From Desulfuromonas sp. SDB (lineage in GTDB: Bacteria; SDB-A): a stretch of 29,522 bases of DNA. Numbering within the stretch: the first letter of the stretch is position 1; each line of letters starts with the position of its first letter. The notes under the pieces were generated by a model, which saw nothing but the letters and a program-made list of their open reading frames with translations, was not told where the DNA came from and searched no databases. Location: the NCBI GenBank assembly GCA_001412365.1, contig LKUE01000274.1, forward strand, positions 1-29,522. Reading direction: 5' to 3'. The translations under genes were made by a program, and so were the position numbers. This document shows positions 2,292 through 28,438 of the stretch, in pieces.

Positions 2292-2311
2292 TGCAAATGT
2301 GATATTAAATT

Positions 2312-3540: not shown

Positions 3541-3561
3541 AAAATATTTAAGATAAAAATC

Positions 3562-3591: not shown

Positions 3592-3597
3592 AAAGCA

Positions 3598-5706: not shown

Positions 5707-5728
5707 CTTACCTCCTAATAAAAAAAAT

Positions 5729-5748
5729 GGGGTTGGTTTCCCAACCCC
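5729..5748 (-). terminator. Intrinsic terminator between two co-directional subtilases
   Basis: On the minus strand, a perfect 8-bp GC-rich stem (5741-5748 with 5729-5736, four-base loop) is followed by ATTTTTTTATT. It starts about 11 bases after the stop codon of the 847-residue protease and ends about 20 bases before the next start codon. The next gene's AGGAGG lies just beyond the T-run. Confidence 0.85.
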
Positions 5749-5759
5749 TATTGACAAAG

Positions 5760-8303: not shown

Positions 8304-8318
8304 TAGAACCTCCATTAA

Positions 8319-9872: not shown

Positions 9873-9902
9873 CAAACCTCCTTATTGAAATAATAATGAC
9901 AA

Positions 9903-10001: not shown

Positions 10002-11720
10002 TTACTCAGCAACAATAATTTTACCGGAATAGGAAAATCCGCCGGAAGTCATGCGATAAATATAATTACCTGCGGAAACATCTGCATTCCAGTTGAAATT
10101 ATGATTTCCTGCAGAAAGATAACCGTTGATTAGGTCAGCTACTTCTCTTCCGCTGGCATCATATACTCTCAAGGTGGTCCTGGCGCCTTGGGGCAGGGAA
10201 AGTTTAAAGGTAAACTGGCGGTTATTTTGACTGGCAACCACCTTGTACATAGTGGGCACAACATTAACAGGCTGTTCTTCCACTCCTACCGTGTAGGGAC
10301 CAACCTGGGGAAGACCAAGATCAGTTACCACATTTAAACTTATATGATAGAGATTATTATGGTCTGTATCGTTAAGTGTTCCGCCTTCTTTGAAACATAC
10401 AATATGAACATTGCTGTTATTGTCCACATAGTATGAAGCACTGGGGAAATACCAGGCAAAGCTGTCACTAAGGAATGGTGCAGCAATCTGGACATCCCAG
10501 GTATTTCCACCATCGGTGGAGGTCATTCCGGTTAAACCATAAGGAGTGGAGCCTAAAGTATCATAAGCGGCGACACTGAATCCGTATAATACAATGTTTG
10601 TGTCCACATCATAGTAATAGCCCACGGTTGGAAATCCGGAGAGATGTTCAAAAGTGCCGGGATCGTTGTCAATTACCGCAACTGGATTCAGTGAATCAAA
10701 AGTGTAAGCTCCGGGAGTACCTCCGTTAGGTTTTATGAAATAAATCTCACCAAAGTGATAGCTGTAAGTCGGATCTTTGTGAGTATCCAATTTCGCCAGA
10801 ATATAAGGCATCTGGTTATAGTAATCTACAACCACGCTGTAGCCCATCCAGGTAAGAGAAATGGTATCCGCATTACCCAGGGTATCAATGATAGGAACAA
10901 TCATCATCTGATGAGGTGAACTCCAGGTCATTCCATAATCAGTGGTTTCCATATACCAGTTCTTGATCCAGGTATTGGCGACATCCTGTCTTCCGAAATA
11001 CATGAAGGCATAACCACTATCACCACGGTCAATCATCGGGGCAACTTGACCGGTAGCAGAACCGCAGGGAAATATTACCGTAGAATCCCAGGTAGATCCT
11101 CCATCAGTTGAAGTAAATCCATAGATATCATCATTTCCGGCATCTGCACCGGTACCAAAGCGATGTCCGTCGTCCCATACCACTCCGGTGGGGAAATAAG
11201 TTATGGCTGCAGCCATGACAGTGGGAGTAAACAACTGAAATGGAGTTAATTCGTCATAAGTATAATAGGTATTGCCGGTAGTGCCAGGATAATATCTTTC
11301 CAACCAGTAAATATGGGCAGTAGCGGAATAGGGATAAGTATTGTCATTTTCATCCCACATTTGTGCCTGATGAGGATAAGTTCTCATACAGTTTCCAGTT
11401 CCCACTTGGGCAGGAGTCCAATTGGCGCCGCCGTCGGTTGAATAAGCCTGATAGAACACCTGAAAGTCATTGGGATCAGTAGTGGTTTGAGAAAAAATCA
11501 CGGACACTGTATCCCCCCTGACTATCACATTCCTTCCCGGTTGTACTATTCCCCGGTAGTTTGCATCAGGAGTAATAAGCACGGTATCTGATGCTTTTGA
11601 GCCAATGCGGGAATAATTTGAGATGGGAGTAATCTGGTCAGGATTTAATACTCCCTGATCGGAAAATACCATTCCCGTCAGCATAACAAAAATACAAATC
11701 ATCACAGCAAACTTTTTCAT
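10002..11720 (-). CDS. Secreted Asp-box (BNR-type) beta-propeller protein with sorting domain
   Basis: The 572-residue protein has a signal peptide (1-20, cleavage near VFS-DQG) and a central region with at least four Asp-box motifs of the S/T-x-D-x-G-x-T/N-W type: STDGGANW (94-101), STDGGSTW (204-211), TTDYGMTW (259-266) and STDGGNTW (near 408). Asp boxes mark beta-propellers of the sialidase superfamily and related glycan or protein binders. I see no sialidase FRIP motif, so an enzymatic call is not made. GVEEQP at 479-484 precedes a sorting domain with RVYDASGRE. The ATG at 11720 follows AGGAGG by eight bases; the GTG two codons upstream is too close to that site. It has a strong upstream promoter and a close paralogue at 14655-16370. 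Confidence 0.88.
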   Translation of the reverse strand: MKKFAVMICIFVMLTGMVFSDQGVLNPDQITPISNYSRIGSKASDTVLITPDANYRGIVQPGRNVIVRGDTVSVIFSQTTTDPNDFQVFYQAYSTDGGANWTPAQVGTGNCMRTYPHQAQMWDENDNTYPYSATAHIYWLERYYPGTTGNTYYTYDELTPFQLFTPTVMAAAITYFPTGVVWDDGHRFGTGADAGNDDIYGFTSTDGGSTWDSTVIFPCGSATGQVAPMIDRGDSGYAFMYFGRQDVANTWIKNWYMETTDYGMTWSSPHQMMIVPIIDTLGNADTISLTWMGYSVVVDYYNQMPYILAKLDTHKDPTYSYHFGEIYFIKPNGGTPGAYTFDSLNPVAVIDNDPGTFEHLSGFPTVGYYYDVDTNIVLYGFSVAAYDTLGSTPYGLTGMTSTDGGNTWDVQIAAPFLSDSFAWYFPSASYYVDNNSNVHIVCFKEGGTLNDTDHNNLYHISLNVVTDLGLPQVGPYTVGVEEQPVNVVPTMYKVVASQNNRQFTFKLSLPQGARTTLRVYDASGREVADLINGYLSAGNHNFNWNADVSAGNYIYRMTSGGFSYSGKIIVAE

Positions 11721-11837
11721 GTTCACTACCTCCTTTTTTTAACAATTATAAATACAACTAATATAAAATTTAATTCAAGAAAAAAAGAAAAAAATTTAGT
11801 CATTTTCAGTAACCACCACTTATACTAAACTATTAGT

Positions 11838-11923: not shown

Positions 11924-14491
11924 TTACTTTATAACTACAAACTTGCCCACCTGAGTGTTCCCGCTGGGATCCTCCACTGCAAACAAATATATTCCGCTGG
12001 CAACTAACTGGGTATCATTGGATATCAAATTCCAATCTTCGGTTCCGCTGTTATTTTCACTTCCGTCGTGCTCCAGAACTTTAACCAGATCTCCAGTCAG
12101 GGTGTAAATGCGGATGGTGCATACTTCAGGAAGATTGATAAAAGAGATCCTCCGGGAATGTTCAGTCCAGCCGGTTCTGGCAGGATCTTCCCAGGGTTCT
12201 GCCCCGGAAGAGTAATCAATATCCCCCCGGTAAGGATTGGGCACCACCATCACCGGGCTATCATCGTTTAACTGTCGGGGAGCAGGAGAAGGAACTACGT
12301 AAAAAGCATTGCTGCCTTTGGAAGATTCCAGGGGGGTAACCCCGGTTTGAGGATTTCCAAAATCAAATCCGGTAATTGCATAGTATATAGGATGTAATAA
12401 AGTTACATTAGAATCCACAAACACATAGCGGTATTCATTGCGGTATTTTTCCAAGGGAGAAAAATCAGGATTTTCATCTAATTGATAATTGAGCTGATAA
12501 GCAGTATCGGCATAATTAGCATCTGGAGCTCTAATCGTATCATATTCTAACCAAAAGCCGAAAGCATACTCCGGTTTTGATGGAACTAGAATAGTATCTG
12601 AACCCGGCAAAGTATCCGCAGGATTTAAAAATATATATCTTTCTGCCCGGTCCCATTGATGAAGCATAGTCCATCCGGCAATTTCTCTTTCCGTATTGGA
12701 ATAGCTTTTGTAAATTCGGTAACCCTGGAAATCTTCATAATTTGGTACAAACGGATCAGTTTTGACCTGTTCATCAGGAAGAACATTCCATAAAGAATCA
12801 CGGTCAGGATTAGTGGGTACTTTTTCCCTCTTTCCCCATAGTATGGTTACATCAGTAGACCTGGGAACGCCGGGAATTACCAGCATTTGGGAAAAGTTGG
12901 GAGGAGGGGGTCCGGCAAAATCAGGAATTCCGTCTCCGGTCCAGTCAATGGTGTCGCCATTGATTACAATGGGCTCAGGCCAGTGGAAGAAAGGATCGGT
13001 AGTGTCACAGATGGAAGTATCCGAAGGGGTGGGCCATCCTACCACTGTATCCGTTCCCCAGGGAACCGAGGTAATCACATTGGGATTATCGTAGACATCC
13101 AGAGCCCACCGGGCATTTGTTCCCAAATCAGTAAAGTCATATCTGGACGGGGACCATGAATTTTCTCTGGTAACCATGGTATCTCCGGGCTGGGCATAAG
13201 GATGATTAGACCAAAGGGGAACATCTGAGTAAAGCTGGAAATTTTCTCCGCCAATGTAAGCGATAGTTATAGGTACGCTATCACCGGGTTGGAAAGTAGA
13301 ATCAGTAACGGGGATACCATTTCTTAGTGCGGGATAAATTGGTCCGAAGGATAATAAATAACGGGTATCGTTAAAAAGAGTATCCGTCCTTCCCGGATAA
13401 CTTATATCAATCTGGTCAGGATCAAAAGAACCATTAGCCATGTACAGCCATTTCAATATATCTGAACGGGGATCGTCATAGCTGGGTGTTCCTGGCTGAG
13501 GATCACCCGGGGAAAATTGAGAATTCAGCTGAGTCAGCAGAATATCATAAGGATTATCAGGAAATGCAGGTCCCCAGTCAGCAATGATATCATTCTGATT
13601 ACCGTACCACCAGTTGAAAGAAGTTCCTAGATAGGGATTAGGGGTTCTTAAAATCCTGCATCCGGTTACATCGGGAGTTATCAAACCGGCACAATTTTCC
13701 TGAAAGCCGATCAGCGCGGCATTAGCCAGCCATGCAGTTTTAATACTATCCTTGGGATTATCCGGATTTCCTCCGTATTGCAGAGGAATTGAGGCAATAA
13801 AACCGCAGGCATCGTCCTGGGCTTTGGGACTCTGATAAAGTGCTCCGGTAGGTCCGCAGTCTCCATCCATGTACAGACCCATATATACTTCTTTTAAATT
13901 CTTTCTGCCGATATTTTTCACCCAGAAATCAATAATGATAAAATCTTCCGCATAGCTGTAACTCCAGGCATAGCTGTTCTGCCTAACTTCTATTCCCAAG
14001 GGTCTATGCCAGGGACCCATTTCAGGAATAGTAGGATCGGTATAGGTATCGGTGTAAACTGCCAGAAAATCCAATTCAGACACGGCGGTGGTATCAAAGA
14101 CAGGAGAATTAGGTTTGTTGGACCGCTCCACAATAGTATCACCGGGATTACATCCAGGCCACATTTCTTTAACATGAAGCCATCCGTCTCCACCTACCGA
14201 ACATATAGTATCCCTGCCCACAATTGCACCAATCCACAGGCAGCCCTTGAACAAGTACTCCTGGTTGGAATAAGCGGGGAAAATACAGGAATAAGGCTCA
14301 GTACCCCATTCTCCGTCATTTCCAAAAAAACCGTAGTTGGTAAAAGTCAGCCAGATATTACTGGCATTTTGATTTTTAAATTGAGTGGTTGGATTAACTG
14401 TGTACGGAGAGTAAATTTCTTCAGTAGTTGACAACAACAAAGATGTAGTCGCCAAGGTAAGTATTACTGTAACGAGTAAAATCTTCCTCAT
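11924..14491 (-). CDS. Large secreted surface protein of unknown function with sorting domain (copy B)
   Basis: This 855-residue protein has an N-terminal signal peptide (about 1-21) and a long conserved region rich in aromatic and Asp residues that I cannot assign to a named family. Around 516-524 DWTGDGIPD resembles an Asp-rich calcium-binding loop. Residues of about 530-720 include YEDFQGYRIYKSYS and look like a fibronectin-III-type segment. The last ~90 residues (VMVVPNPYRGD, then RIYTLTGDLVKVLEHDG, ending GKFVVIK) are a FlgD-like/T9SS-type sorting domain. It is very similar throughout to the 856-residue protein at 18196-20766, and the C-terminal ends are nearly identical. ATG 14491 follows GGGAGG by five bases. 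Being secreted and repeatedly paired with the propeller protein, it is likely a surface component; a binding role is inference. Confidence 0.85.
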   Translation of the reverse strand: MRKILLVTVILTLATTSLLLSTTEEIYSPYTVNPTTQFKNQNASNIWLTFTNYGFFGNDGEWGTEPYSCIFPAYSNQEYLFKGCLWIGAIVGRDTICSVGGDGWLHVKEMWPGCNPGDTIVERSNKPNSPVFDTTAVSELDFLAVYTDTYTDPTIPEMGPWHRPLGIEVRQNSYAWSYSYAEDFIIIDFWVKNIGRKNLKEVYMGLYMDGDCGPTGALYQSPKAQDDACGFIASIPLQYGGNPDNPKDSIKTAWLANAALIGFQENCAGLITPDVTGCRILRTPNPYLGTSFNWWYGNQNDIIADWGPAFPDNPYDILLTQLNSQFSPGDPQPGTPSYDDPRSDILKWLYMANGSFDPDQIDISYPGRTDTLFNDTRYLLSFGPIYPALRNGIPVTDSTFQPGDSVPITIAYIGGENFQLYSDVPLWSNHPYAQPGDTMVTRENSWSPSRYDFTDLGTNARWALDVYDNPNVITSVPWGTDTVVGWPTPSDTSICDTTDPFFHWPEPIVINGDTIDWTGDGIPDFAGPPPPNFSQMLVIPGVPRSTDVTILWGKREKVPTNPDRDSLWNVLPDEQVKTDPFVPNYEDFQGYRIYKSYSNTEREIAGWTMLHQWDRAERYIFLNPADTLPGSDTILVPSKPEYAFGFWLEYDTIRAPDANYADTAYQLNYQLDENPDFSPLEKYRNEYRYVFVDSNVTLLHPIYYAITGFDFGNPQTGVTPLESSKGSNAFYVVPSPAPRQLNDDSPVMVVPNPYRGDIDYSSGAEPWEDPARTGWTEHSRRISFINLPEVCTIRIYTLTGDLVKVLEHDGSENNSGTEDWNLISNDTQLVASGIYLFAVEDPSGNTQVGKFVVIK
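12030..12091. repeat. 62-bp block identical to 18302-18363
   Basis: This block inside the C-terminal coding part of the 855-residue protein is identical at all 62 bases to the same place in the paralogue, including third-codon positions, while the flanks differ at synonymous sites. It encodes part of the sorting domain around KVLEHDG and ENNSGTEDW. Confidence 0.85.
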
Positions 14492-14604
14492 TACAACCTC
14501 CCTTAATTATGCTAATAATTTATTTAAACGCTATATAGACATGTAACATAATAGTTTATATTTAAATTAATTATTAAGCAATAAAATATTATTATAAAAA
14601 AAAA

Positions 14605-14624
14605 GGAGCGCAATTAAGCGCTCC
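14605..14624 (-). terminator. Intrinsic terminator closing the TonB/PorV operon
   Basis: A 7-bp perfect stem (GGAGCGC/GCGCTCC, 14618-14624 with 14605-14611, six-base loop) is followed on the minus strand by nine T residues. It lies about 30 bases after the stop of the propeller gene at 14655. I see no convincing promoter in the remaining AT-rich gap before the gene at 14491. Confidence 0.9.
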
Positions 14625-14654
14625 CTTTAAAGCCCGAACCAGAATTTATGATTT

Positions 14655-16370
14655 TTACTGAGTGATAAAAATCTTGCCGGACTGAGAATATCCGCCAGAA
14701 GTCATCCGGTAAATATAATTACCTGATGATACATCAGCATTCCAGCTGATATTATAGGTTCCGGCAGTAAGATAACTGTTGACCAAGTCAGCAACTTGTC
14801 TTCCGCTAGCATCGTAAATTCTCAGCGAAGTTCTGGCTCCTTCTGGTATTGAAAGTTCAAAAGTGCAAAGTCCGCTGTTTTGACGGGCAACCACGTTGTA
14901 CATGGAAGGTATTACATTAATCGGCTGTTCTTCCACTCCAACCGTATAAGGTCCAGGATTAGGTAATCCCAGGTCATTGACCACGTCAAAGCTGACGTGA
15001 TACAAATTTAAATTGTCAGGATCATTGTGAGTGTCTTCTTTTATGCATACTACATGGACATGGTTGTTGTTGTCCAGATAATATGATGCGCTGGGGAAGT
15101 ACCATCCAAAACTGTCACTTAGAAAAGGTGCGGCAATTTGAACATCCCAAGTGTTGCCCTCGTCAGTAGAAGTCAAACCCATTAGAGCAGGATACTGACT
15201 AGCCATTGTATCTATTAAAGCAAGACTGAATCCGTACAAAACAATGTTTTCACTTTGATCGTAGTAGTATCCGATGGTGGGATAAGCGGAGAGATGTTCA
15301 AATACATTAGGATCGTTATCAATAACTGGATATGCATTAGTTGAATCAAAAGTCCAAGCTCCGGCTGATCCGCCGTTAGGTTTAATGAAGTAAATTTCAC
15401 CGAAGTTATAACTGCTGGTGGGATCTTTTCCGTAGTCTAATTTTGCTAGAATGTAAGGTGTTTTATTGTAGAAATTAACTACTGCACTGTAGCCCTGCCA
15501 GGTCAAGGACAAGGTGTCAGCATTGCCTAAAGTATCAATTATATCCACCACCATCATCATATGGGGGGAAGTCCAGGTCACGCCGTAGTCAGTAGATTCA
15601 ATATACCAGTTCTTGATCCAAGTATTGGCAACATCTTGTCTTCCAAAATACATGAACACATAGCCGTCGTCTCCCCGGTCAATCATGGGGGCAACCTGTC
15701 CAGTAGCAGAACCGGCAGGAAATATTACTGTAGAATCCCAAGTGGCTCCGGCGTCAGTTGAAGTAAATCCATAGATATCATCACTTACGGCATCGCAACC
15801 GGTGCCGAAACGATGTCCGTCATCCCACACCACTCCGGTGGGAAAGTAAGTTATGGCTGCAGCCATCTCTACGGGGGTGAACAACTGGAATGGAGTTAAT
15901 TCATCATAGGAATAATAAGTATTACCGGTGGTTCCAGGATAATATCTTTCCAGCCAGTAAGCGTAAGCAGTGGCGGAATAGGGATAGATGGTGTCGTTTT
16001 CATCCCACATCTGAGCCTGGTGGGGATAAGTTCTCATGCAGTTGCCGGTTCCGACCTGAGCAGGGGTCCAGTTTGCTCCGCCGTCGGTGGAATAAGCCTG
16101 GTAGAATACCTGAAAATCATTGGGGTCAGTAGTAGTCTGGGAATAGATTACTGATACCGTATCCCCTCTGACAATTACATTTCTACCCGGTTGGCAGATA
16201 CCTCTCCAGTTTGCATTAGGCGAAATCAGAACGGTGTCTGATGCTTTACTGGAGTATACCGAATAATTCTCAATCGGTACTACTTGGTCATGGTTGTAGA
16301 TTGCCTGGTCAGCAAATACTGTCGAGGCAAATAACAATGCCATCATAATAATAATTGCAAAGTTTTTCAT
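14655..16370 (-). CDS. Secreted Asp-box (BNR-type) beta-propeller protein with sorting domain, operon copy
   Basis: This 571-residue paralogue of the protein at 10002-11720 keeps the same layout: signal peptide (about 1-21), Asp-box motifs (STDGGANW, STDAGATW, STDYGVTW, STDEGNTW), GVEEQP 94 residues from the end, and a sorting domain with RIYDASGRQ ending in KIFITQ. No sialidase catalytic motif is visible. The longest frame starts at 16439 inside the upstream exbB-like gene; ATG 16370 is chosen because AGGAGG lies nine bases upstream and a signal peptide follows at once. It is the last gene of the operon, 16 bases after the exbB-like stop. It is probably a surface-displayed binding or scaffold protein, with ligand unknown. 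Confidence 0.88.
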   Translation of the reverse strand: MKNFAIIIMMALLFASTVFADQAIYNHDQVVPIENYSVYSSKASDTVLISPNANWRGICQPGRNVIVRGDTVSVIYSQTTTDPNDFQVFYQAYSTDGGANWTPAQVGTGNCMRTYPHQAQMWDENDTIYPYSATAYAYWLERYYPGTTGNTYYSYDELTPFQLFTPVEMAAAITYFPTGVVWDDGHRFGTGCDAVSDDIYGFTSTDAGATWDSTVIFPAGSATGQVAPMIDRGDDGYVFMYFGRQDVANTWIKNWYIESTDYGVTWTSPHMMMVVDIIDTLGNADTLSLTWQGYSAVVNFYNKTPYILAKLDYGKDPTSSYNFGEIYFIKPNGGSAGAWTFDSTNAYPVIDNDPNVFEHLSAYPTIGYYYDQSENIVLYGFSLALIDTMASQYPALMGLTSTDEGNTWDVQIAAPFLSDSFGWYFPSASYYLDNNNHVHVVCIKEDTHNDPDNLNLYHVSFDVVNDLGLPNPGPYTVGVEEQPINVIPSMYNVVARQNSGLCTFELSIPEGARTSLRIYDASGRQVADLVNSYLTAGTYNISWNADVSSGNYIYRMTSGGYSQSGKIFITQ

Positions 16371-16386
16371 CCGAAAAAACCTCCTG

Positions 16387-17046
16387 TTAAATAGCTTTTT
16401 GTAACTCATTGGCTCGGGCTCTGCCAAGGAGAAAATCAATAACTTTTACCGAAATGTATTCAACATCCTTGGTAATTTCATTAATTCTTGAAGTAAAATA
16501 TACATGAAAAGCGCTGACCGGAAAAGCAATTAATAGACCAGTGGCAGTAGTAATTAAAGCCACTTGAATACCGCTGGCGACTAACACCGGATCAACGGTG
16601 GCTGCCTTGGCAATGGAGTCAAATGCCATCATCATTCCCACTACTGTTCCTAAAAATCCAATAAGCGGAGCAATGGTGGAAACTGCGGCAAGAACATCCA
16701 ATCCCTTATCTAAAGTTTCCAGTTCTCTTATCGCGGAAAGATTAACTGCATCCTCTAAAGCAAATTTCTTTTCTTGTTCTTCTAAATCACCGTATTTATT
16801 ATTCTGATTGATTAACGAAGCTACAATCCTGGATAATGCAGTATTATAAGAGGTGCATACTTCCAATGCCTTTTTTCCTTTATCTTCTTGGGAAAAAGAA
16901 TTGACAAAATCAGAAATAAAACCTTTCTGCTTTTTAGAAACTAAGTTCAGAACAATTAACCTTTCAAAAATTGTCGCCACTCCGACTACACTTGATATCA
17001 GAAGCAACCACATTGCCCATCCGCCTTTTGCAAATAACTCTAGCAC
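16387..17046 (-). CDS. exbB: Second ExbB/TolQ-type proton-channel protein, next to PorV-like gene
   Basis: The 219-residue protein has the three-helix pattern of MotA/TolQ/ExbB proteins, which form the inner-membrane stator with ExbD-type partners. TM1 is about 10-31, TM2 about 117-140 (APLIGFLGTVVGMMMAF) and TM3 about 162-184 (VALITTATGLLIAF). It is a clear paralogue of the ExbB at 22428-23105. It has no ExbD beside it: its neighbours are the PorV-like barrel upstream and a sorting-domain protein downstream. It starts at a GTG (17046) nine bases after AGGAGG. A 12-bp hairpin (17075-17112) precedes it. It may share the ExbD proteins of the same operon or drive a different process such as secretion; this is open. 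The symbol reflects family only. Confidence 0.88.
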   Translation of the reverse strand: MLELFAKGGWAMWLLLISSVVGVATIFERLIVLNLVSKKQKGFISDFVNSFSQEDKGKKALEVCTSYNTALSRIVASLINQNNKYGDLEEQEKKFALEDAVNLSAIRELETLDKGLDVLAAVSTIAPLIGFLGTVVGMMMAFDSIAKAATVDPVLVASGIQVALITTATGLLIAFPVSAFHVYFTSRINEITKDVEYISVKVIDFLLGRARANELQKAI

Positions 17047-17074
17047 CTAAGATTACCTCCTTTTATTCTCATTC

Positions 17075-17112
17075 CTTTTTGGGGTAATTATTAATATAAC
17101 TACCCCAAAAAG
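17075..17112. other. Perfect 12-bp stem-loop between PorV-like and exbB-like genes
   Basis: Arms at 17075-17086 and 17101-17112 are perfect reverse complements (CTTTTTGGGGTA and TACCCCAAAAAG) with a 14-base AT loop. No T-run follows on either strand, so it is not a standard terminator. It sits about 10 bases after the upstream stop and just before the next ribosome site; it could protect the upstream mRNA end or modulate the downstream genes. Confidence 0.75.
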
Positions 17113-17122
17113 ACACTACCCT

Positions 17123-18184
17123 TTAGAATTGTGCGCCCAGGGAAACCCGGTGCACATTTCCAAGATATTCAAATTTAGTAAAAGCGTAGTCCAGAGAAAC
17201 CGCACTGCGATTTCCCAAGGGGACCTGAAATCCAACACCTGCGCTGAATTGTTCTTCACTTAAATAAGTTCTATTCAATTCGGAATTTCCTTCTTCGTCT
17301 ACTGTTTCATCATTGTAGAATCCCGGTTTCAGACCGACTCTCAAGAAGAACATGTCGTTAAATCCGTATTCAGTTCCAATGAAAAAACGGTCTTCCATAT
17401 GATTGGGATGACTAATTTCAGTGTCCATTACTATCTGGTGAGGTCCGGTTTTAAGGGGGATAAATGAAATTCCAAAACGAAAGTCCTGAGGCATATTAAA
17501 TTCTTCATTGATATATTTGGCACTACCTCCGAAATTCATCATGGCAATACCGATCATTATGCTTTTAAAATGGGTGTCGTAAAGCATACCAATATCAAAT
17601 ACAACCTGATTTGCATCAAAATCATGGATCTTACTCTGTAGATATTTAAGAGAAAGACCCACACTGAATTTATCGGTGAGCATACGGGCATAGGAAAGTC
17701 CAATGGCCATATCACCGGCTTTAAAAGTTCTTCCGGTTCTGCCTAGAGAATCTACAGCCAGACCAAAACCGGGAGGAGCAGTTTCATCCATTGCATCAGT
17801 TCCCAGATAAATGGCTTGAAAGCCAATGGTACCAATGGCTTCGCTGATGGGATAACTTGCTCCAAAAAAGGTGTGATAAATATCCGCAACGTATTTAGTT
17901 CCTCCTATTGATACTTTGATAGGGGGACTGGTCAATACCCTGCGATAATAAGATGAATCTCCTTCTTCTATTTTTACGCTTCTTACCATAGCCATGCCCG
18001 CAGGATTGTAATATACCGCCGCACCATCATCAGCCAGTGCAGTTAAAGCATTGCCCATGGCGGCACCTCTTGCGGTTGGGGTAAGCATCATAAACATGAA
18101 CCCAGCGGTACCAACATTTGACTGAGCACTGAGTAATATAGGAAGAAGGATTACTATTGAGATTGAGATTAAATATTTTTTCAT
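17123..18184 (-). CDS. PorV/PorQ-family outer-membrane beta-barrel protein
   Basis: This 353-residue protein has a signal peptide (1-20, LLSA-Q) followed by the family hallmark: VGTAGFMFMMLTPTARGAAM and then ALADDGAAVYYNPAGMA. Amphipathic beta-strands fill the rest and the protein ends in Phe, as outer-membrane barrels do. In Bacteroidota PorV carries T9SS cargo to the surface attachment complex, and PorQ and related proteins share this start; the family is wider than T9SS, so the role here is inferred from the sorting-domain proteins on both sides. ATG 18184 follows GAGGAGG by six bases; the longer frame from GTG 18199 would overlap the upstream stop and ribosome site. Only 11 bases separate it from the 856-residue surface protein gene. 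Confidence 0.85.
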   Translation of the reverse strand: MKKYLISISIVILLPILLSAQSNVGTAGFMFMMLTPTARGAAMGNALTALADDGAAVYYNPAGMAMVRSVKIEEGDSSYYRRVLTSPPIKVSIGGTKYVADIYHTFFGASYPISEAIGTIGFQAIYLGTDAMDETAPPGFGLAVDSLGRTGRTFKAGDMAIGLSYARMLTDKFSVGLSLKYLQSKIHDFDANQVVFDIGMLYDTHFKSIMIGIAMMNFGGSAKYINEEFNMPQDFRFGISFIPLKTGPHQIVMDTEISHPNHMEDRFFIGTEYGFNDMFFLRVGLKPGFYNDETVDEEGNSELNRTYLSEEQFSAGVGFQVPLGNRSAVSLDYAFTKFEYLGNVHRVSLGAQF

Positions 18185-18195
18185 CTCGTTCCTCC

Positions 18196-20766
18196 TCACT
18201 TAATAACCACAAATTTACCGACCTGAGTGTTACCACCAGGTTCTTCTACTGCATATAAATAAATTCCACTTGCAATCAACTGAGTATCATTAGATATCAA
18301 GTTCCAATCTTCGGTTCCGCTGTTATTTTCACTTCCGTCGTGCTCCAGAACTTTAACCAGATCACCGGTTAAGGTGTAGATGCGGATGGTGCATACTTCA
18401 GGAAGATTGATGAAAGATATCCTCCGGGAATGTTCAGTCCAGCCGGTTCTGGCAGGATCTTCCCAGGGTTCTGCCCCTGAGGAGTAATCTTTATCTCCCC
18501 GGTAAGGATTGGGAACCACCATTACCGGTGTATCCTCATTTAATTGACGGGGAGCTGGAGAAGGTACTATGTAGTGAGCATTACTTCCCTTGGATGATTC
18601 CAGAGGTTCTACATCAGTTTGAGGATTACCGAAGTCAAAGCAGGTTACGGTGTAGTAGATGGGATGAAGCAAGGTGACATTGGAATCCACAAAAACATAA
18701 CGGAATTCATTACGGTATTGTTCCAGGGGAGCAAAATTTGGATCAATATTTAGTTGATGATTTAATTGATAATCAGTTTCATAAATATTTGCATCAGGAG
18801 CTCTAATAGTATCGTATTCCAACCATTGACCAAAAGCATACTGGGGATAATTCTGGTTAGGCACTTCCACCGGATCAGAATTCGGATCTGTGGGATTTGA
18901 AAGTATCCATTTAAATCCCATATCCCACTGTCTTAACATTGTCCATCCGGCAATTTCCCTTTCCACATTGGAATAACTCTTGTAAATGCGGTATCCCTGA
19001 AAATCTTCGTAATTGGGAACAAACGGATCTTTACTTACCTGCTCGTCAGGCAGAATATTCCACAGCGAATCCCGGCTGGGATCAGTGGGAACTTTTTCCC
19101 GTTTTCCCCAGAGAATGGCTATATCCGTAGCCCGGGGAACTCCGGGGACAATCATCATCTGGGTAAAGTTGGGGGGGGGAGGACCGGCAAAATCAGGAAT
19201 TCCGTCACCAGTCCAGTCAATGGTGTCTGTATTAATAACTATGGGTACCGGCCAGTGGAAAAAAGGATCAGTGGTGTCGCAAATAGATGTATCCGCTGGT
19301 CCCATGGGAGGGAATATAGCTTGAGTAATAGTGTCATCTCCCCAGGGGACTGAAGTAATCACCTTGGGATTGTCGTATACATCCAATGACCATCTAGCAT
19401 TGGTTCCCAAATCAGTGAAATCATATCTTATCGGAGACCAGGAATTTTCCTTGGTGACTATTGTATCTCCGCCGGTTACATTGGGATGCCCGGACCAGGT
19501 GGGCACATCAGAAAATATCTGGAAGTTCTCTCCACCGATGTAAGCTACCGTAACCGGCACACTGTCTCCCGGCTGAAAAGTGGAGTCATAAACCGGCATT
19601 CCATTCCTTTGAGCAGGATAAATCGGTCCGAATGAGAACATGTATCGGGTATCATTCATCAATGTATCTGAATAGGCATAACGGATATCCAGCTGATCAG
19701 GATCAAATGCGCCGTTAGCCATCAACAGCCATTTCAGCACATCTGCCCGGGGATCATCATAACTAGGTGTTCCTGGTTGTGGATCTCCTGGTGAAAATTG
19801 AGAGTTAAGTTGAGTTAACAGAACATCATAAGGATTATCAGGAAATGCAGGTCCCCAGTCGGCAATCATATCCGACTGATTTGAATACCACCAGTTAAAA
19901 GATGTACTCAAATAAGGGTTGGGTGTGCGAAGCACTCTGCATCCGGTGACATCGGGAGTAACCAGACCGGCACAATTTCCCTCAAAACCAACTAAAGCTG
20001 CATTAGCCAGCCAGGCAGTTTTGATGCTGTCCTTGGGATTATCCATATTTCCGCCGTACTGAGGTGGAATTGAAGAAATAAATCCGGTCACATCGTCCTG
20101 GGACTTATCATCTGAATACAACGCTCCGGTTGGTCCGCAGTCTCCATCCATGTATAAACCGATATATACTTCTCTTAAAGTTCTTCTCCCGATATTTTTA
20201 ACCCAGAAATCAATTATGATGAAGTCTTCAGCATAACTGTAACTCCAGGCATAACTGTTCTGACGGACTTCTAATCCCAGAGGACGGTGCCAGGGACCCA
20301 TACTAGGAATGCTGGGATCAGTGTAAGTATCTGTATATACTGCAATAAAATCCAACTCGGAAACTGCAGTGGTGTCAAATACCGGAGATGTGGGAATATT
20401 TGAGCGTTCCAGAATAGTGTCTCCAGGATCAGTTCCCGGATACATTTCTCCTTCATGAGCCCATCCATCAACACCTACTGTACATAAAGTGTCTCTTCCC
20501 ACAATTGCTCCAACCCACAGTGCTCCCTGAAAAAGGTACTCCTGGTTGGAATAAGCAGGAAAAACACAGGAATAGGGCTCGGTTCCCCATTCACCTCCAT
20601 TACCAAAAAATCCGTAATTGGTAAAGGTCAACCAGATATTACTGGCATTTTGATTTTTAAACTGAGTTGTCGGTGCAACAAGAGGTCTCATCTCATCTCT
20701 GGTTCTGGCATAAATTATATTAAACAGCAACAAGAGTGAGATGAATACTATAGCAACTCTCTTCAC
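18196..20766 (-). CDS. Large secreted surface protein of unknown function with sorting domain (copy A, in TonB operon)
   Basis: This 856-residue paralogue of the protein at 11924-14491 has a signal peptide (about 1-20), a conserved unassigned region, a DWTGDGIPD loop, a fibronectin-like stretch with YEDFQGYRIYKSYS, and a FlgD-like/T9SS-type sorting domain ending GKFVVIK. It lies 11 bases after tonB and 11 bases before the PorV-like gene, so it is embedded in the TonB operon. The GTG at 20766, five bases after AGGAGG, is chosen; the longer frame begins at another GTG (20772) only one base from that site. Its place beside a TonB-dependent receptor suggests a surface partner such as a substrate-binding protein, analogous in position to SusD, but no SusD similarity is visible. 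Confidence 0.85.
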   Translation of the reverse strand: MKRVAIVFISLLLLFNIIYARTRDEMRPLVAPTTQFKNQNASNIWLTFTNYGFFGNGGEWGTEPYSCVFPAYSNQEYLFQGALWVGAIVGRDTLCTVGVDGWAHEGEMYPGTDPGDTILERSNIPTSPVFDTTAVSELDFIAVYTDTYTDPSIPSMGPWHRPLGLEVRQNSYAWSYSYAEDFIIIDFWVKNIGRRTLREVYIGLYMDGDCGPTGALYSDDKSQDDVTGFISSIPPQYGGNMDNPKDSIKTAWLANAALVGFEGNCAGLVTPDVTGCRVLRTPNPYLSTSFNWWYSNQSDMIADWGPAFPDNPYDVLLTQLNSQFSPGDPQPGTPSYDDPRADVLKWLLMANGAFDPDQLDIRYAYSDTLMNDTRYMFSFGPIYPAQRNGMPVYDSTFQPGDSVPVTVAYIGGENFQIFSDVPTWSGHPNVTGGDTIVTKENSWSPIRYDFTDLGTNARWSLDVYDNPKVITSVPWGDDTITQAIFPPMGPADTSICDTTDPFFHWPVPIVINTDTIDWTGDGIPDFAGPPPPNFTQMMIVPGVPRATDIAILWGKREKVPTDPSRDSLWNILPDEQVSKDPFVPNYEDFQGYRIYKSYSNVEREIAGWTMLRQWDMGFKWILSNPTDPNSDPVEVPNQNYPQYAFGQWLEYDTIRAPDANIYETDYQLNHQLNIDPNFAPLEQYRNEFRYVFVDSNVTLLHPIYYTVTCFDFGNPQTDVEPLESSKGSNAHYIVPSPAPRQLNEDTPVMVVPNPYRGDKDYSSGAEPWEDPARTGWTEHSRRISFINLPEVCTIRIYTLTGDLVKVLEHDGSENNSGTEDWNLISNDTQLIASGIYLYAVEEPGGNTQVGKFVVIK
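18302..18363. repeat. 62-bp block identical to 12030-12091
   Basis: This is the second copy of the identical block described at 12030-12091, in the same place of the paralogous gene and the same orientation. The spacing between copies is about 6.3 kb. Confidence 0.85.
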
Positions 20767-20777
20767 ATCCACCTCCT

Positions 20778-21428
20778 TTAATTAAGCCTAAAGTTAACTG
20801 GAAAAACTAATTTAACTCTAATTGGTCTACCTGCGCTTTCCGCCGGAGTGAATCTGCACTTCAATCCGGCTTCTACTGCTGCATCATCAAACAGTGGATT
20901 GTCTGACCGCAGTACATCCGCCCGGTTGACCGAACCATCAATATCTACATACAATATTAAAATCACTGTACCTTCTATGCCCATATCCTGGGCAGCCCGT
21001 GGATACATCGGTTCCTGAAGATGAACAGGTCGGGGAGGGACTTCATAGACATCAACATATTCTGTACTGGTTTCAACCTGTTCGTCGGGTATCAGATTGG
21101 TGGTATCCACTTCAAAAGCTTCTGCAGCGGTACTTCCCAACAAGGTGTCTCCTTCTTCAGAAATCTCGATCATTCCGCTTTGTTCGGGCAATTGTTCCAT
21201 CATCTGATCCTGGGGTTGTTGAATTTCCTGATGAATTTCTTCAACCGCCTGGAAATCAACCTGCAAGTTTACATCCTGCTGAACAGTGGTAACCTGCCGG
21301 TCTTCAGAAGGAATGTACTCGGGAATACTTGGTTCAGGTATAACCATAAATGCTACCAAATGTAAAACCAAAGCCAGTACAATTCCAACTCTTAATGGAA
21401 CCGCAGTGTTCATTCTTGGTGTTTTCAT
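20778..21428 (-). CDS. tonB: TonB energy-transducing protein
   Basis: The 216-residue protein has a short cytoplasmic N-terminus, one membrane helix (about 12-31, VGIVLALVLHLVAFMVI), a Gln/Glu-rich periplasmic spacer (about 40-130) and a TonB C-terminal domain (about 131-216) with PMYPRAAQDMGIEGTV, DGSVNRADVLRSD and a closing VFPVNFRLN. It would link the ExbB/ExbD proton channel to the receptor's TonB box. The spacer is not the usual Pro-Lys/Pro-Glu type. ATG 21428 follows a GGGGGAT site that lies inside the last codons of the upstream exbD, only four bases away, so the two are translationally coupled. Confidence 0.93.
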   Translation of the reverse strand: MKTPRMNTAVPLRVGIVLALVLHLVAFMVIPEPSIPEYIPSEDRQVTTVQQDVNLQVDFQAVEEIHQEIQQPQDQMMEQLPEQSGMIEISEEGDTLLGSTAAEAFEVDTTNLIPDEQVETSTEYVDVYEVPPRPVHLQEPMYPRAAQDMGIEGTVILILYVDIDGSVNRADVLRSDNPLFDDAAVEAGLKCRFTPAESAGRPIRVKLVFPVNFRLN

Positions 21429-21432
21429 AATT

Positions 21433-21918
21433 TTATCCCCCTAGTTGACTTTCTCTTGCTCCATAGTTTATCTGTATGGCTTGAACAACATTTCTTCCCC
21501 CTTGACGGGCTTCCTGGAGAAGAGAGTCAATATACACATAGGGCATATCTTCCTCTATCTGTAAACTGAATACAAACTGTTTCCAATCCTCTTCACTTCC
21601 ACTGGTGTTAGCTCGATATTCTTCTAATTCATTGCGTAGAATCCCATCCACCTGGTCCATCGGATAAATTTGATCATCAATGGAAACTATAGGCAAACGG
21701 TCATTAATATTCCGAGAAGACCATCCTAAATAAATATGATGAATTCTCCTCTGCTGGAGCTTATCTGCCAAATCACCGGTGGGAAGAGTAACGTCAAGCC
21801 CCCGTTCTTGCCTGAATACAGTTGAAACCATGAAAAATATTATTAATAAAAACGCAATATCCGACATAGAACTGGTGGGGATATTTGCTTTTGGTTGTTT
21901 CTTTTTAACTAATTTCAT
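21433..21918 (-). CDS. exbD: ExbD/TolR family protein (second)
   Basis: This 161-residue protein has the ExbD layout: a basic cytoplasmic N-terminus, one membrane helix (about 18-38) starting IPTSSMSDIAFLLIIFF with the proton-carrying Asp20, and a periplasmic domain. The periplasmic part is longer and more acidic than in E. coli ExbD. It shares the IPTSSMSDIAFLL signature with the exbD immediately upstream, so the operon encodes two different ExbD proteins that could form mixed dimers inside the ExbB pentamer. The gap from the upstream gene is seven bases, with AGGTG as ribosome site. Confidence 0.92.
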   Translation of the reverse strand: MKLVKKKQPKANIPTSSMSDIAFLLIIFFMVSTVFRQERGLDVTLPTGDLADKLQQRRIHHIYLGWSSRNINDRLPIVSIDDQIYPMDQVDGILRNELEEYRANTSGSEEDWKQFVFSLQIEEDMPYVYIDSLLQEARQGGRNVVQAIQINYGARESQLGG

Positions 21919-21925
21919 ATTTCAC

Positions 21926-22426
21926 CTACCAGCCGGTTATCGGTCTCAATTGAACACTTATCAGTGCAGAGACAGTCTGGTTGTTAAACCAATCTTCTTC
22001 AGGCAGATTGGGATAAATTCGGTCCAGAGAATCAGCTGCTTTTATCACTTCAGTATACACGTCCAGCATCCTCTGATAAGTTACATCTCCCTCCACAAAT
22101 ATAAGCGGTGCTTTCATTTTCCTGCCTTCAATAGCAGTGGATATTGAATCAAACACCACATTTTTTATTTCAGCAAAAGGGATTTTTTGTCCTCCCACTT
22201 TTACACTGTCCCCGGCAACGGTGGTATCTTGAGGAACCACTATACTCAGAACAACATTTTCCTGCGCTTCCTGAGTTTCACCGGTAGGGGGCAGTTTAGT
22301 TACCATTCCGGTGTCTTTTTCAAAATGAGTGGTAACTAAAAAGAATACCAGGAGAAGAAAAGCAATATCAGACATAGAACTGGTAGGTATTTCAGCTTCC
22401 CGAGATACCTTAGCGCGCAATGCCAT
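21926..22426 (-). CDS. exbD: ExbD/TolR family protein (first)
   Basis: This 166-residue protein has one membrane helix (about 18-38) beginning IPTSSMSDIAFLLLVFF with Asp20 in the conserved proton-path position, then a periplasmic domain that includes IFVEGDVTYQRMLDVYTEV, typical of the ExbD/TolR fold. Its ATG is one base after the stop codon of exbB (TGATATG), so the pair is tightly coupled. It is the more canonical of the two ExbD proteins. Confidence 0.93.
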   Translation of the reverse strand: MALRAKVSREAEIPTSSMSDIAFLLLVFFLVTTHFEKDTGMVTKLPPTGETQEAQENVVLSIVVPQDTTVAGDSVKVGGQKIPFAEIKNVVFDSISTAIEGRKMKAPLIFVEGDVTYQRMLDVYTEVIKAADSLDRIYPNLPEEDWFNNQTVSALISVQLRPITGW

Positions 22427-22427
22427 A

Positions 22428-23105
22428 TCAGCCCTCTACTTCCTCTTCCAACACTGATTCCGCTAACATGGACGACGCTTCTTCATATTTTCTGGTAATA
22501 GTATTTATTCTGGAAGTAAACCATACATGGAAAGCACTCGCGGGGAAGGCAATCATCAAACCGGTAGCAGTTGTAATTAAAGCCACCCGGATACCATCAG
22601 CGACAATAGTCGGTTCAACTGTACCCGCCTGGGCAATAGATTCAAAAGCCATCATCATTCCCACTACTGTGCCCAGGAATCCGATAAGAGGGGCAATATT
22701 TGCCACCGCTGCTAATACCAGCATACCCCGGTCCAGATAAGCCAAGCTTACCAATGCCTCGGTATCTCTGGCTTCTTCCATATCTTCTTTACCATATTCT
22801 GCCTTATCTAGCATAGCTGCAGAAATTCTGGCTATTGCGGAATCATCTTTTTTTGAACTATTTAAAGCGGCTTTTATTCCATCCAATCCTTTTTTAGCTT
22901 TAATCGTTTCAATTAAATTATTAACGTAATCAATGGGGTCAGGACCAGTTTTCAGATATAAAAAGATTACCCTTTCCACAATAAAAATTAATCCAATAAG
23001 AGCAGCGATAAGTAACAAGTGCATTGCCCATCCACCTTCTCTATACAAGGCAATCACACCACCCTGGTTAACTACCGCGTTAGCGACCACTAAACCAAAA
23101 TTCAC
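22428..23105 (-). CDS. exbB: ExbB/TolQ family proton-channel protein
   Basis: The 225-residue protein has three membrane helices: about 26-50, 128-153 (APLIGFLGTVVGMMMAF) and 176-198 (ALITTATGLMIAFPASAFHVWF). These are the ExbB signature positions lining the proton path. The start GTG (23105) is six bases after AGGAGG; the longest frame uses a TTG six bases earlier that abuts the ribosome site. It follows the receptor gene after a 16-bp hairpin and leads directly into exbD, exbD and tonB. Together these form a complete energising complex. Confidence 0.94.
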   Translation of the reverse strand: MNFGLVVANAVVNQGGVIALYREGGWAMHLLLIAALIGLIFIVERVIFLYLKTGPDPIDYVNNLIETIKAKKGLDGIKAALNSSKKDDSAIARISAAMLDKAEYGKEDMEEARDTEALVSLAYLDRGMLVLAAVANIAPLIGFLGTVVGMMMAFESIAQAGTVEPTIVADGIRVALITTATGLMIAFPASAFHVWFTSRINTITRKYEEASSMLAESVLEEEVEG

Positions 23106-23168
23106 TTCCAACCTCCTGGTTTCATCAACATTTAATCATAAATCAATTTTAAAATTTATTAATTGCAA

Positions 23169-23204
23169 GCAGAAATATCCAATATATTTATTGGATATTT
23201 CTGC
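23169..23204. other. Perfect 16-bp stem-loop between the receptor gene and exbB
   Basis: Arms 23169-23184 and 23189-23204 are perfect reverse complements (left arm GCAGAAATATCCAATA) with loop TATT. On the minus strand it starts about 13 bases after the receptor stop and is followed by TTGCAATT, without a T-run. It could stabilise the receptor mRNA 3' end or partly terminate, setting receptor and Exb/Ton levels apart. Confidence 0.8.
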
Positions 23205-23216
23205 ATTTTACCCTAG

Positions 23217-25919
23217 TTAAAAGCTGGCAAAAAACCCGACCATAATCCTGCGGGGATCGGAACGATTGGTAGGATCGGACTGTATCTCAGATCCATTTCC
23301 ATTCCAGGTTCCGGTATCTTCGTTGACATCCAACACATTTTTCCTGTTGAACAGGTTATCCACATTAACGGTGAAACCGTAGTCAACCGGGCCGTAGCTG
23401 AAGTTTTTTATGAAGTTCAGATTCCACTCGATATGATAGGGCATCCTCATATAATTTTTCCCAGCTAATAAATCGTAATCGGGATTATCAGTGCTGGGGG
23501 TATAGGGAAATCCGCTGCCGTACTGACATTCAATGGAGAAAGTCCACTTGTCCGGAACAAATCCGAACATCTTTTCGCCTTCACCAGCTTGGAGGGTAAG
23601 ATCTCCGGTAACTGCATGTCTTTCATCCCAATTCAAAGGATAAGTCTTCAGGGGAATTTCCTTGGGATCATCTAATTGATAATTATCTCTTTCACTGGAT
23701 CCCTTACCATAAGCCCACTGCATAGTGTAGCCAAGACCGACTCCCCAGTAATTGCGGACATTCTTTTCAAAACTGAAATCAAAACCTCTAACATTACCGT
23801 AATCCAGGTTGGTGTAAATCTGACCGTCAAAGGGAGGAGTTCCTCCACTCATCAGTCCCACCAAACCGCGGATATCCTTGAAGAAAGCTCTAACTGATAC
23901 TTTAGAATAGGAGTTAAAGGCATGGTCCAAACCAATTTCGTACTGCACTGTCTTCTCCGCATCTATATCTGGATTTGTGTAAATCTTCAGTGCGGATGTA
24001 CCCTGCTGATTTGCTCCGTATAAGTACTGTAATTCCGGAAGCTGGATGAATCTACCGTAGGAGAAGTAAAGCTTGTCCTTGTCAGTGACGGGGAAAGCAA
24101 TACCCAGGCGGGGACTGAAATCGTATTTATTGGTAGTCTGAACGGTGTCTCCGCTTAAAGGATCGGGATAATTGGAGAAAGCATCTCCGGGAACCCAGAA
24201 ATCCAGTCTCATTCCTACATTGATAATCATCCCTTCTGTTTCCAATTTGTCCTGAAGGTATACTGATCCTCCCATGGGTTCAGCTTTGTAACAATTTCTG
24301 AACACTCCCTGGTCGGGATAAGGTTCCCAGGGTTCCGGCTGGATTGCACCGGTGTAGTAGAGGTAAGGATACTGGATACTGTGGTATTGAAGCTGATAGT
24401 AATCAAAGCTTCCGCCAAATTTAACTAAATTTTCCCGGTTTAGCTGCCAGGAAAAATCTCCCATTAAAGACCATCTTTTAACCTGTCTTCTGCTCCAGGC
24501 TACCCATTGATCGTACTCCCCTTGATTGAGAAATCTAATTCCATCATACTGCTCGCTGCGGACGAAGATTTCCTCAGGGAAGGTCCCCGGATACCAGTAA
24601 TCAGGATTGTGACCATGATCACGGGCAGCGGTATTGTGGAAAAATCCAAATTTTAAATTGTAAAAGGCTTTGGAAGATATGGTGTGATTCCACCCCAAAG
24701 TCCACTGGTAGGCAATATCCTGAGCAACCATTTCATTTTCCACATTGTACTTGTAGATATGCTCGTAAGGAACCTGCCATTTCCAGGTTTTATTGAAGGA
24801 GAAAATTAATTTTTTAGTACTGGTTAGGAGATAGGCTAACTTTGCATTGGAAGTGTAACGATTGTACTGTCTCAGAGGAAACAATTTGTTATCTTCCATA
24901 ATATCAGACTGAAGCAGAAAATCTCCCGGAGTTACCCAGCCCCGGTAGTTGGTGGAATCCGGAGAGTATCTATTCTGGGCGTAATCGAAATCATTATTAA
25001 AGCCAACATAAGGAGTACCGGTATTGTACCAGTATCCGGTAGTGGATACAAAAAAGGTTAAATAACCGGATTCCCTTCCCTCTTCTCCTCTTCCTAACAA
25101 CAATCTGCTGAGGGGCTCGGGTCCACCCAAGGAAAATTCATAACGGTCTGAATTGAATGAATAATCCCGGTCAGTTCCGGCAAACTTATCGGTTTTGTAA
25201 CTCAATCTTCCTGAATAATTAGTTCTGCTGCCTTCTCTGGTGACCACATTGACCACCCCGGATTGAGCTTGACCGTATTCAGCGTTAAATCCCCCTGCAA
25301 TAATATTCATTTCCTGCACCGCATTGGAAGAAATGTCAATGGAGAAATTACCAAACAGAGGATCTCTAACCGACATTCCGTCAACCATGTACAAAACCTC
25401 ACCACCTCTTCCCCCTCTGACATGGATCTCCCCGCCTTGCTGAGTGGCGGAAGTTGATCTGGTAAGAGCTTCTGCAAATTGATCAATACCCAATGCTTCC
25501 ATCTGCTCTGCATTTACGGTTACCTCTGTAGCGGTAACGTCTGTGGCAATTATTCTCTGCCCATAGGTGGTAACTTCAATACCAATTTCCAGGGCTTCAG
25601 ATCTTAAGGTCATTGGACCGACATCCGTAGTCCGGTCTACATGCACCACTACCCCTGCTTTTTGGGCGGGAGTAAAACCTATCATTGCCGCCTGGACAGT
25701 ATAGGTTCCCGGGGGTACACCAATGATATCAAATTCACCTTGGGCATTGGTTAATCCACCAAAACTAGTATTAAGAACCATTACCTGGGCATAGGGAACT
25801 GGATTACCTCGGTCATCAACTACTCGACCACGGATTTTACCCGTAGTTCCGGCATAAATCATAACCGGAATAACCAGAAGTAAAACCAAAAAGCTCCACA
25901 ACTTCACCCTGAAATGCAT
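23217..25919 (-). CDS. TonB-dependent outer-membrane receptor with carboxypeptidase-regulatory domain
   Basis: The 900-residue receptor has a signal peptide (about 1-23), an N-terminal carboxypeptidase-regulatory-like beta-sandwich (about 27-105, GKIRGRVVDDRGNPVPYAQV), a possible TonB box near 113-118 (GIEVTT), a plug domain (about 125-230, with EIHVRGGRGGEVLYMVDGMS and GGFNAEYGQAQSGVVNVVT), and a large beta-barrel ending in Phe (GFFASF), the usual barrel-assembly signal. Such receptors import bulky substrates using force from TonB. The plug and extra N-terminal domain resemble SusC-like and oar-like receptors, but no SusD gene is next to it. ATG 25919 follows AGGAGG by five bases and a good promoter lies upstream. 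The substrate is unknown. Confidence 0.93.
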   Translation of the reverse strand: MHFRVKLWSFLVLLLVIPVMIYAGTTGKIRGRVVDDRGNPVPYAQVMVLNTSFGGLTNAQGEFDIIGVPPGTYTVQAAMIGFTPAQKAGVVVHVDRTTDVGPMTLRSEALEIGIEVTTYGQRIIATDVTATEVTVNAEQMEALGIDQFAEALTRSTSATQQGGEIHVRGGRGGEVLYMVDGMSVRDPLFGNFSIDISSNAVQEMNIIAGGFNAEYGQAQSGVVNVVTREGSRTNYSGRLSYKTDKFAGTDRDYSFNSDRYEFSLGGPEPLSRLLLGRGEEGRESGYLTFFVSTTGYWYNTGTPYVGFNNDFDYAQNRYSPDSTNYRGWVTPGDFLLQSDIMEDNKLFPLRQYNRYTSNAKLAYLLTSTKKLIFSFNKTWKWQVPYEHIYKYNVENEMVAQDIAYQWTLGWNHTISSKAFYNLKFGFFHNTAARDHGHNPDYWYPGTFPEEIFVRSEQYDGIRFLNQGEYDQWVAWSRRQVKRWSLMGDFSWQLNRENLVKFGGSFDYYQLQYHSIQYPYLYYTGAIQPEPWEPYPDQGVFRNCYKAEPMGGSVYLQDKLETEGMIINVGMRLDFWVPGDAFSNYPDPLSGDTVQTTNKYDFSPRLGIAFPVTDKDKLYFSYGRFIQLPELQYLYGANQQGTSALKIYTNPDIDAEKTVQYEIGLDHAFNSYSKVSVRAFFKDIRGLVGLMSGGTPPFDGQIYTNLDYGNVRGFDFSFEKNVRNYWGVGLGYTMQWAYGKGSSERDNYQLDDPKEIPLKTYPLNWDERHAVTGDLTLQAGEGEKMFGFVPDKWTFSIECQYGSGFPYTPSTDNPDYDLLAGKNYMRMPYHIEWNLNFIKNFSYGPVDYGFTVNVDNLFNRKNVLDVNEDTGTWNGNGSEIQSDPTNRSDPRRIMVGFFASF

Positions 25920-25970
25920 ACATACCTCCTAGCTTATCTTTTAATAAATGTTAATTTTCTGTTAACCTAT

Positions 25971-25999
25971 ATATTAAAACTACTTCCTTAAATCGTCAA
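25971..25999 (-). promoter_or_regulatory. Sigma70-like promoter of the TonB/PorV operon
   Basis: On the minus strand TTGACG (25994-25999, 5/6) and TAATAT (25971-25976, 4/6) are 17 bases apart. Transcription would begin near 25964, giving a leader of about 45 nt before the receptor gene. The rest of the 203-base gap holds the terminator of the next operon and AT-rich sequence. Confidence 0.55.
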
Positions 26000-26850: not shown

Positions 26851-26852
26851 AT

Positions 26853-27701: not shown

Positions 27702-27704
27702 AAT

Positions 27705-28433: not shown

Positions 28434-28438
28434 AACTG

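Follow-up and report, generated by a model that had tools for sequence, protein, structure and literature searches.

A conserved gene module of TonB receptor, surface protein and PorV/PorQ-family barrel suggests a type IX-linked uptake machine in FCB-type phyla outside Bacteroidota

Results

The DNA analysed here (the window, 29,522 nucleotides) is contig 274 of the draft genome of Desulfuromonas sp. SDB (G000; 3.14 Mb in 433 contigs, 98.7% complete). Nine genes run along its minus strand from 25919 to 14655, in the order that a first-pass annotation had read from the sequence: receptor, exbB, exbD, exbD, tonB, surface protein, barrel, exbB and propeller protein. The TonB-dependent receptor (23217..25919, 900 aa; PF13620, 66.8 bits; PF07715, 33.1 bits; PF00593, 88.5 bits) is followed by ExbB1 (22428..23111, with GTG 23105 the likelier start; PF01618, 96.6 bits), two copies of ExbD (21926..22426 and 21433..21918; PF02472, 56.8 and 54.1 bits) and TonB (20778..21428; PF03544, 64.2 bits), which together make up a TonB system, the models for ExbB, ExbD, TonB and receptor (PF01618, PF02472, PF03544, PF07715/PF00593) all being matched above their cut-offs. 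The surface protein, SURF-a (18196..20772), which was studied through alignments (A2/A3), a structure model, a fold search and a tail profile, is 858 aa long from its first GTG start or 856 aa from its third codon. Next comes a barrel of the PorV/PorQ family (17123..18184), assigned to a SURF-linked clade by model score, tree, structure model and fold search; it has 353 aa from ATG 18184, and its reading frame is already open from GTG 18199. The series closes with a second ExbB (ExbB2, 16387..17046; PF01618, 97.5 bits) and PROP-a (14655..16370), a BNR/Asp-box propeller-type protein with an ordinary type A tail of the type IX secretion system (T9SS; TIGR04183, 28.2 bits, cut-off 23) whose propeller matches fall under their cut-offs (PF13088, 27.9 bits; PF02012, 21.7 bits).

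In the order of transcription the gaps measure 105, 1, 7, 4, 5, -4 (or 11), 76 and 16 bases, so that six of the eight joints span 16 bases or fewer, in keeping with the small gaps first described, and the wide ones are those of 105 and 76 bases. Each wide joint holds a minus-strand hairpin without a T-run: one with a perfect stem of 16 bp between receptor and exbB1 (23169..23204), the other with 17 pairs in the gap between barrel and exbB2 (17047..17122). No shuffle of the gap bases was as stable as either hairpin in G000. Of two relatives in the same family, G003 has a hairpin in both gaps and G001 in the first, its second gap falling outside its contig; the places are the same and the sequences differ. 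Since both lack T-runs, these hairpins look like stability or processing elements rather than full terminators, and they may split the operon into receptor, energiser-SURF-barrel and ExbB2-propeller segments, probably setting separate amounts for the receptor, for the energiser with SURF and barrel, and for ExbB2 with the propeller protein. A single promoter and a single terminator had been proposed for the nine genes. The terminator is there, an intrinsic one at 14601..14628 (minus strand, 11 pairs followed by T9) and the strongest on that strand; a consensus scan gave the single promoter no support, finding 30 promoter-like sites where shuffles gave 33.

Directly downstream of the terminator lie two paralogous genes that the first-pass annotation had overlooked: SURF-b (11924..14491, minus strand), which is 81% identical to SURF-a, shares its tail and has no barrel gene of its own, and PROP-b (10002..11726, minus strand), a paralogue of PROP-a with a type A tail (TIGR04183, 33.0 bits). 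A third SURF, accompanied by its own barrel, is found on contig 350 of the genome. The remainder of this side (46-9875) is taken up by four minus-strand subtilase genes (S8), among which the only other genes are a short plus-strand pair, and counterparts of two of them, SUB4 and SUB3, also follow the operon in G003. All four subtilases end in T9SS-type tails, and their presence suggests that protein degradation is tied to the locus. On the upstream side (26123-29320) are genes for a DUF4388 protein, two proteins without a clear family and two small membrane proteins. Three of these have counterparts upstream of the corresponding genes in candidate division TA06 SM23_40 (L145), which among the named genomes has the closest upstream synteny.

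The receptor consists of an N-terminal CarboxypepD_reg domain, a plug and a barrel, as read from Pfam and NCBIfam matches, and belongs to a module receptor family aligned over 20 relatives; it stays far below the SusC/RagA model TIGR04056 (35.8 bits vs a cut-off of 368.25). Receptors of the corresponding modules in other phyla carry Asp/Asn-rich, calcium-binding-like repeats of the form DxNGNGxxDxxEPFxD in the barrel region (L145 3228-6194, alignment A5); the window's receptor is free of these. With PF13620 at its N-terminus, the receptor shares its domain order with Oar of Myxococcus, which together with ExbB/ExbD/TonB exports a protease (PMC6434023), and here too secreted proteases, the four subtilases, are encoded close by. 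TonB and the receptor might thus power secretion, with SURF, propeller protein and subtilases leaving through the receptor as PopC leaves through Oar. However, such a domain order is common, occurring in 28% of such receptors, the subtilases lie outside the conserved module in other phyla, and all cargo here, unlike that of Oar, bears T9SS-type tails in a genome that has the T9SS translocon protein SprA. Given the tails of the cargo and the commonness of the domain order, we consider secretion of the Oar/PopC type very unlikely.

The placing of the energiser in one operon with these genes holds for the window's genome but not as part of a widely conserved core, the ExbB-ExbD-ExbD-TonB set standing within the module only in the window's own family (G000, G001 and G003). 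TA06 SM23_40 has its genes arranged as exbB-exbD-exbD-receptor-SURF, preceded by small genes of the kind also found upstream in the window, and in two other genomes (G006 and G010) the ExbB and TonB genes are located away from the module. The window's genome encodes three TonB receptors in total, two besides that of the operon, and also holds two further ExbB/TolQ-type genes and a second, stand-alone TonB, so the energiser complex may serve other receptors as well.

SURF-a begins with a signal peptide, followed by a supersandwich domain (residues ~31-528), an FnIII-like middle and an extended T9SS-type tail (~754-858). In a structure model of middling confidence (pLDDT 67.5) the predicted fold of the first domain is the supersandwich of GH15, GH94 and GH116-type glycoside hydrolases and phosphorylases (Z up to 18.8 over 254 residues), and the catalytic helical barrel of those enzymes is absent from the model. 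The modelled fold would point to a glycan or glycoconjugate ligand, which sharing a fold does not by itself establish. Where modules occur in several copies, both ends of SURF are kept and the middle, which matches no Pfam family, is variable, as might be expected in a family of binding proteins. SusD did not appear among the fold-search matches of SURF, which by itself proves nothing, and a sequence search of the PDB returned no relative of SURF or of the receptor and only chance-level matches to the barrel.

The tail sets SURF apart from the other predicted cargo of the window: a profile made from it scores 148 bits on SURF-a and SURF-b vs <10 on those of the propeller proteins and subtilases. 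It spans 101-132 residues and has an invariant Gly-Asp (Gly803-Asp804) in place of the generic Gly-Arg. The motifs described for T9SS export, a glycine in the beta3-beta4 loop and a lysine in the last strand (PMC11285876), are present as Gly803 in 40/40 and Lys853 in 37/40 SURFs. Under the type A model TIGR04183, SURF-a reaches 18.8 bits (cut-off 23) and 8/40 relatives match at E<=0.01. The operon had been predicted to encode two T9SS-type cargo proteins; this is borne out for PROP-a, which passes that model, whereas SURF-a falls below it and belongs to a tail class of its own that retains the T9SS motifs. A PorZ model matches 21/40 SURFs at E<=0.01, over the PorZ tail; SURF as a PorZ was considered and rejected, the match being confined to that tail.

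The barrel belongs to the PorV/PorQ family (NF033709, 168.9 bits, cut-off 90) and is by the curated models neither PorV nor PorQ, scoring 64.4 bits on the PorV equivalog NF033710 (cut-off 250) and 95 bits on the PorQ equivalog NF033711 (cut-off 220). Every one of 20 aligned relatives matches NF033709 and the PorV, PorQ and PorV2 models, and a Pfam scan of the barrel at E<=0.1 returned no PorP/SprF family. In the tree, all 35 SURF-linked barrels form a single clade (support 98/97) apart from the PorU-linked PorV. Barrels of at least 150 bits number at least 73 in 60 genomes, and at least 50 of them directly follow a SURF-type tail; among the matches listed for these genomes, none precedes such a tail or lies on the opposite strand.

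A model of the barrel (pLDDT 81) finds its best solved match in 8gl6, a PorV with a bound cargo tail in the T9SS translocon (Z 33.7), followed by 6h3i (Z 32.7), FadL (30.7) and BamG (25.7). The nearness of FadL to PorV in this ranking, together with a weak Pfam Toluene_X match (27.9 bits, under cut-off), could be taken to mean that the barrel works with the receptor as a FadL-type channel for oily molecules and has nothing to do with the export of SURF. Set against the NF033709 score, the uniform matches of its relatives to the PorV, PorQ and PorV2 models and the regular position of its gene behind a T9SS-tail gene, this seems barely plausible. The earlier idea of a barrel of the kind that ships T9SS cargo is thus upheld as to family, by sequence and by predicted fold, with the correction that the barrel pairs with the special tail of SURF and not with the type A tail of the propeller protein.

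Of the type IX machinery, SprA is found in the genome (TIGR04189, 461.9 bits summed with its neighbours, cut-off 200), as is a PorU-linked PorV on contig 176, where PorU itself runs off the contig edge and no more than its tail is visible; in G001 and G003 PorU scores above its cut-off. The standard job of PorV is to shuttle cargo with type A tails to the sortase PorU, where the tail is cut and the protein attached to LPS, and at the surface PorV anchors PorU and PorQ anchors PorZ (PMC5562754). The SURF-linked barrel might by analogy be a transient shuttle from SprA to PorU, with the SURF tail cut, SURF linked to LPS and the receptor merely co-regulated, and the PorU-PorV pair for this is at hand in the relatives and, cut by the contig edge, in G000. 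With a PorU-linked PorV already there, however, a second, clade-specific barrel next to SURF would be superfluous; the SURF tail is longer than tails that are processed (cleaved tails have 67-88 residues, the uncleaved ones of PorZ and PorU 96 and 108; PMC11285876); and the receptor remains beside SURF across phyla. We therefore hold a transient shuttle to be unlikely. The absence of a SusD lipoprotein, claimed for the operon, extends to the whole genome, in which PF07980 has no match anywhere. Among 21 genomes with the module, SusD/RagB (PF07980) was not found in 17 and is present in 4, so that in those without it the module could fill the role of SusCD.

Relatives of SURF were collected from named records (80, from Zixibacteria, Calditrichota, LCP-89, Electryoneota, UBP14, TA06 and others); in genome contigs a single 858-aa SURF query returned no relatives, and an alignment query succeeded. 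Among 44 SURF loci with sufficient flanking sequence, a receptor upstream and a barrel downstream are present at 21 and neither of them at 23; a single neighbour or a reversed order occurs at 0/44. Full receptor-SURF-barrel modules number at least 36 in the 60 genomes, with at least 8 in one genome, and the SURF-type tail and the barrel clade occur together in 18/19 genomes, the exception being G001, where the contig stops immediately behind SURF. In the phylum of G047 the barrel clade is present in 75/79 genomes (E<=1e-60), in up to 22 copies, and each of five loci opened there holds two complete modules head to tail. Since many of these loci belong to related genomes, they do not count as independent; the pattern nevertheless turns up again in lineages where the barrels share for the most part 25-40% identity with that of the window.

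Within the window's family, G003 preserves the entire series, ExbB2 and a pair each of propeller and subtilase genes among them, and G001 keeps it up to the end of its contig inside the operon. In more distant genomes the energiser and propeller genes are absent from the series, and receptor, SURF and barrel remain. The first-pass annotation had proposed a search for the same gene order in relatives and would have given up the functional link had they kept the genes apart; for the core, relatives from several phyla keep them adjacent and in the same order. Calditrichota-type genomes have a gene of ~2 kb between receptor and SURF; in the two genomes in which the gene at this place was examined, it encodes a right-handed beta-helix protein (G010, L038 9938-11881; G053, L043 8261-10906).

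In Zixibacteria chromosomes (L108, L114, L147), five to seven SURF genes or gene fragments stand in tandem with no receptor or barrel. The 23 loci without either neighbour, such Zixibacteria arrays among them, and SURF-b, which likewise lacks adjoining receptor and barrel genes, indicate that SURF can do without them. SURF might accordingly act as a coat or adhesion protein of the surface, or as an enzyme, and dock on the receptor with no nutrient passing, as the receptor-free arrays and the fold shared with glycoside enzymes would allow. Yet the catalytic helical barrel of those enzymes is not in the SURF model, and TonB receptors with a plug and a TonB system are normally importers, which leaves docking alone distinctly improbable.

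Discussion

The first-pass annotation saw in the operon a dedicated surface uptake machine that carries its own export factor. Our analysis strengthens this idea for the three-gene core of receptor, SURF and barrel, corrects it for energiser and propeller protein, and leaves the function a matter of deduction. The reading that we favour, at a probability of roughly 0.55, is that the core encodes an uptake complex like SusCD, in which the T9SS exports the surface subunit and a cognate barrel holds it in place, bearing in mind that neighbouring genes need not mean a physical complex. From the gene content, order and conservation, the separate barrel clade and tail type, the presence of SprA and the lack of SusD, as read from sequence, we infer capture of the tail by the barrel, uncleaved anchoring, contact with the receptor, the direction of transport and the nature of the ligand.

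In the mechanism we envisage, the signal peptide would take SURF to the periplasm and SURF would cross the outer membrane via SprA. The barrel encoded directly downstream would then catch it by recognising the long Gly-Asp tail, and would probably hold it on the surface by that tail, uncleaved, as PorQ holds PorZ and PorV holds PorU. So placed beside the TonB-dependent receptor encoded upstream, SURF may act as the outer ligand-binding part of the receptor, in the role that SusD has for SusC, with TonB and ExbB/ExbD powering uptake of the ligand bound to SURF. The 'export factor' of the earlier proposal is one of two options for the barrel; by analogy with PorQ and PorZ a permanent anchor would fit better, because of the long SURF tail.

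Several known systems invite comparison. The SusC/SusD (RagAB) pairs of Bacteroidota combine a TonB receptor with a SusD lipoprotein, and the present loci resemble them in a receptor with an N-terminal carboxypeptidase-like domain, an adjoining gene for a large surface protein and multi-copy tandem loci; they differ in that the partner is a T9SS-tailed supersandwich protein instead of SusD, that a barrel is added as a third gene and that the receptor lies far under the SusC/RagA cut-off. BtuG, a surface propeller that forms a lid on the B12 receptor BtuB, is likewise a partner of a TonB receptor other than SusD, and a propeller-type protein is also encoded in this operon, but BtuG is a lipoprotein and the propeller protein here stands outside the conserved core. 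The PorZ:PorQ and PorU:PorV pairs share with the module a long-tailed surface protein joined to a PorV/PorQ-family barrel, the SURF tail resembling that of PorZ, whereas the present pair is linked to a receptor, exists in many copies and has a SURF without PorZ-type propellers or a sortase domain.

In Flavobacterium, genes for type B cargo are followed by their own PorP/SprF shuttle (PMC12618676, PMC9143113), and a single common PorV is said to serve type A cargo (PMC12618676). The module has the former arrangement, a cargo gene directly preceding its own outer-membrane shuttle or anchor gene, but with a type A-like tail and a barrel of the PorV/PorQ family; as far as the open-access literature shows, a type B-style arrangement with type A-like partners is new. 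A description of the receptor-SURF-barrel gene combination was likewise not found in that literature.

The recurrence of the three-gene core in several little-known phyla suggests a second way to build surface nutrient-uptake machines. We see about an even chance that FCB-type phyla outside Bacteroidota have, as a wider rule, made SusCD-like machines from T9SS cargo, long Gly-Asp tails being matched by a permanent-anchor clade of PorV/PorQ barrels on a TonB receptor and the module having multiplied as polysaccharide utilisation loci have, to reach as many as 22 barrel copies or more in a genome. If so, two systems so far thought of separately, TonB receptors with their surface partners on one side and type IX secretion on the other, would become joined, and something other than a lipoprotein could serve a TonB receptor as its surface partner. 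A role would be predicted for dozens of unannotated surface proteins per genome in poorly known phyla, the rule of one PorV for all type A-like tails would be contradicted, and the many natural tail-barrel pairs would make their pairing testable by comparison.

A smaller feature of the operon concerns its second ExbB. ExbB2 has no ExbD of its own and is kept in G003, where a counterpart 75% identical to it stands at the same position; with two ExbDs encoded in the operon, mixed energiser complexes are possible.
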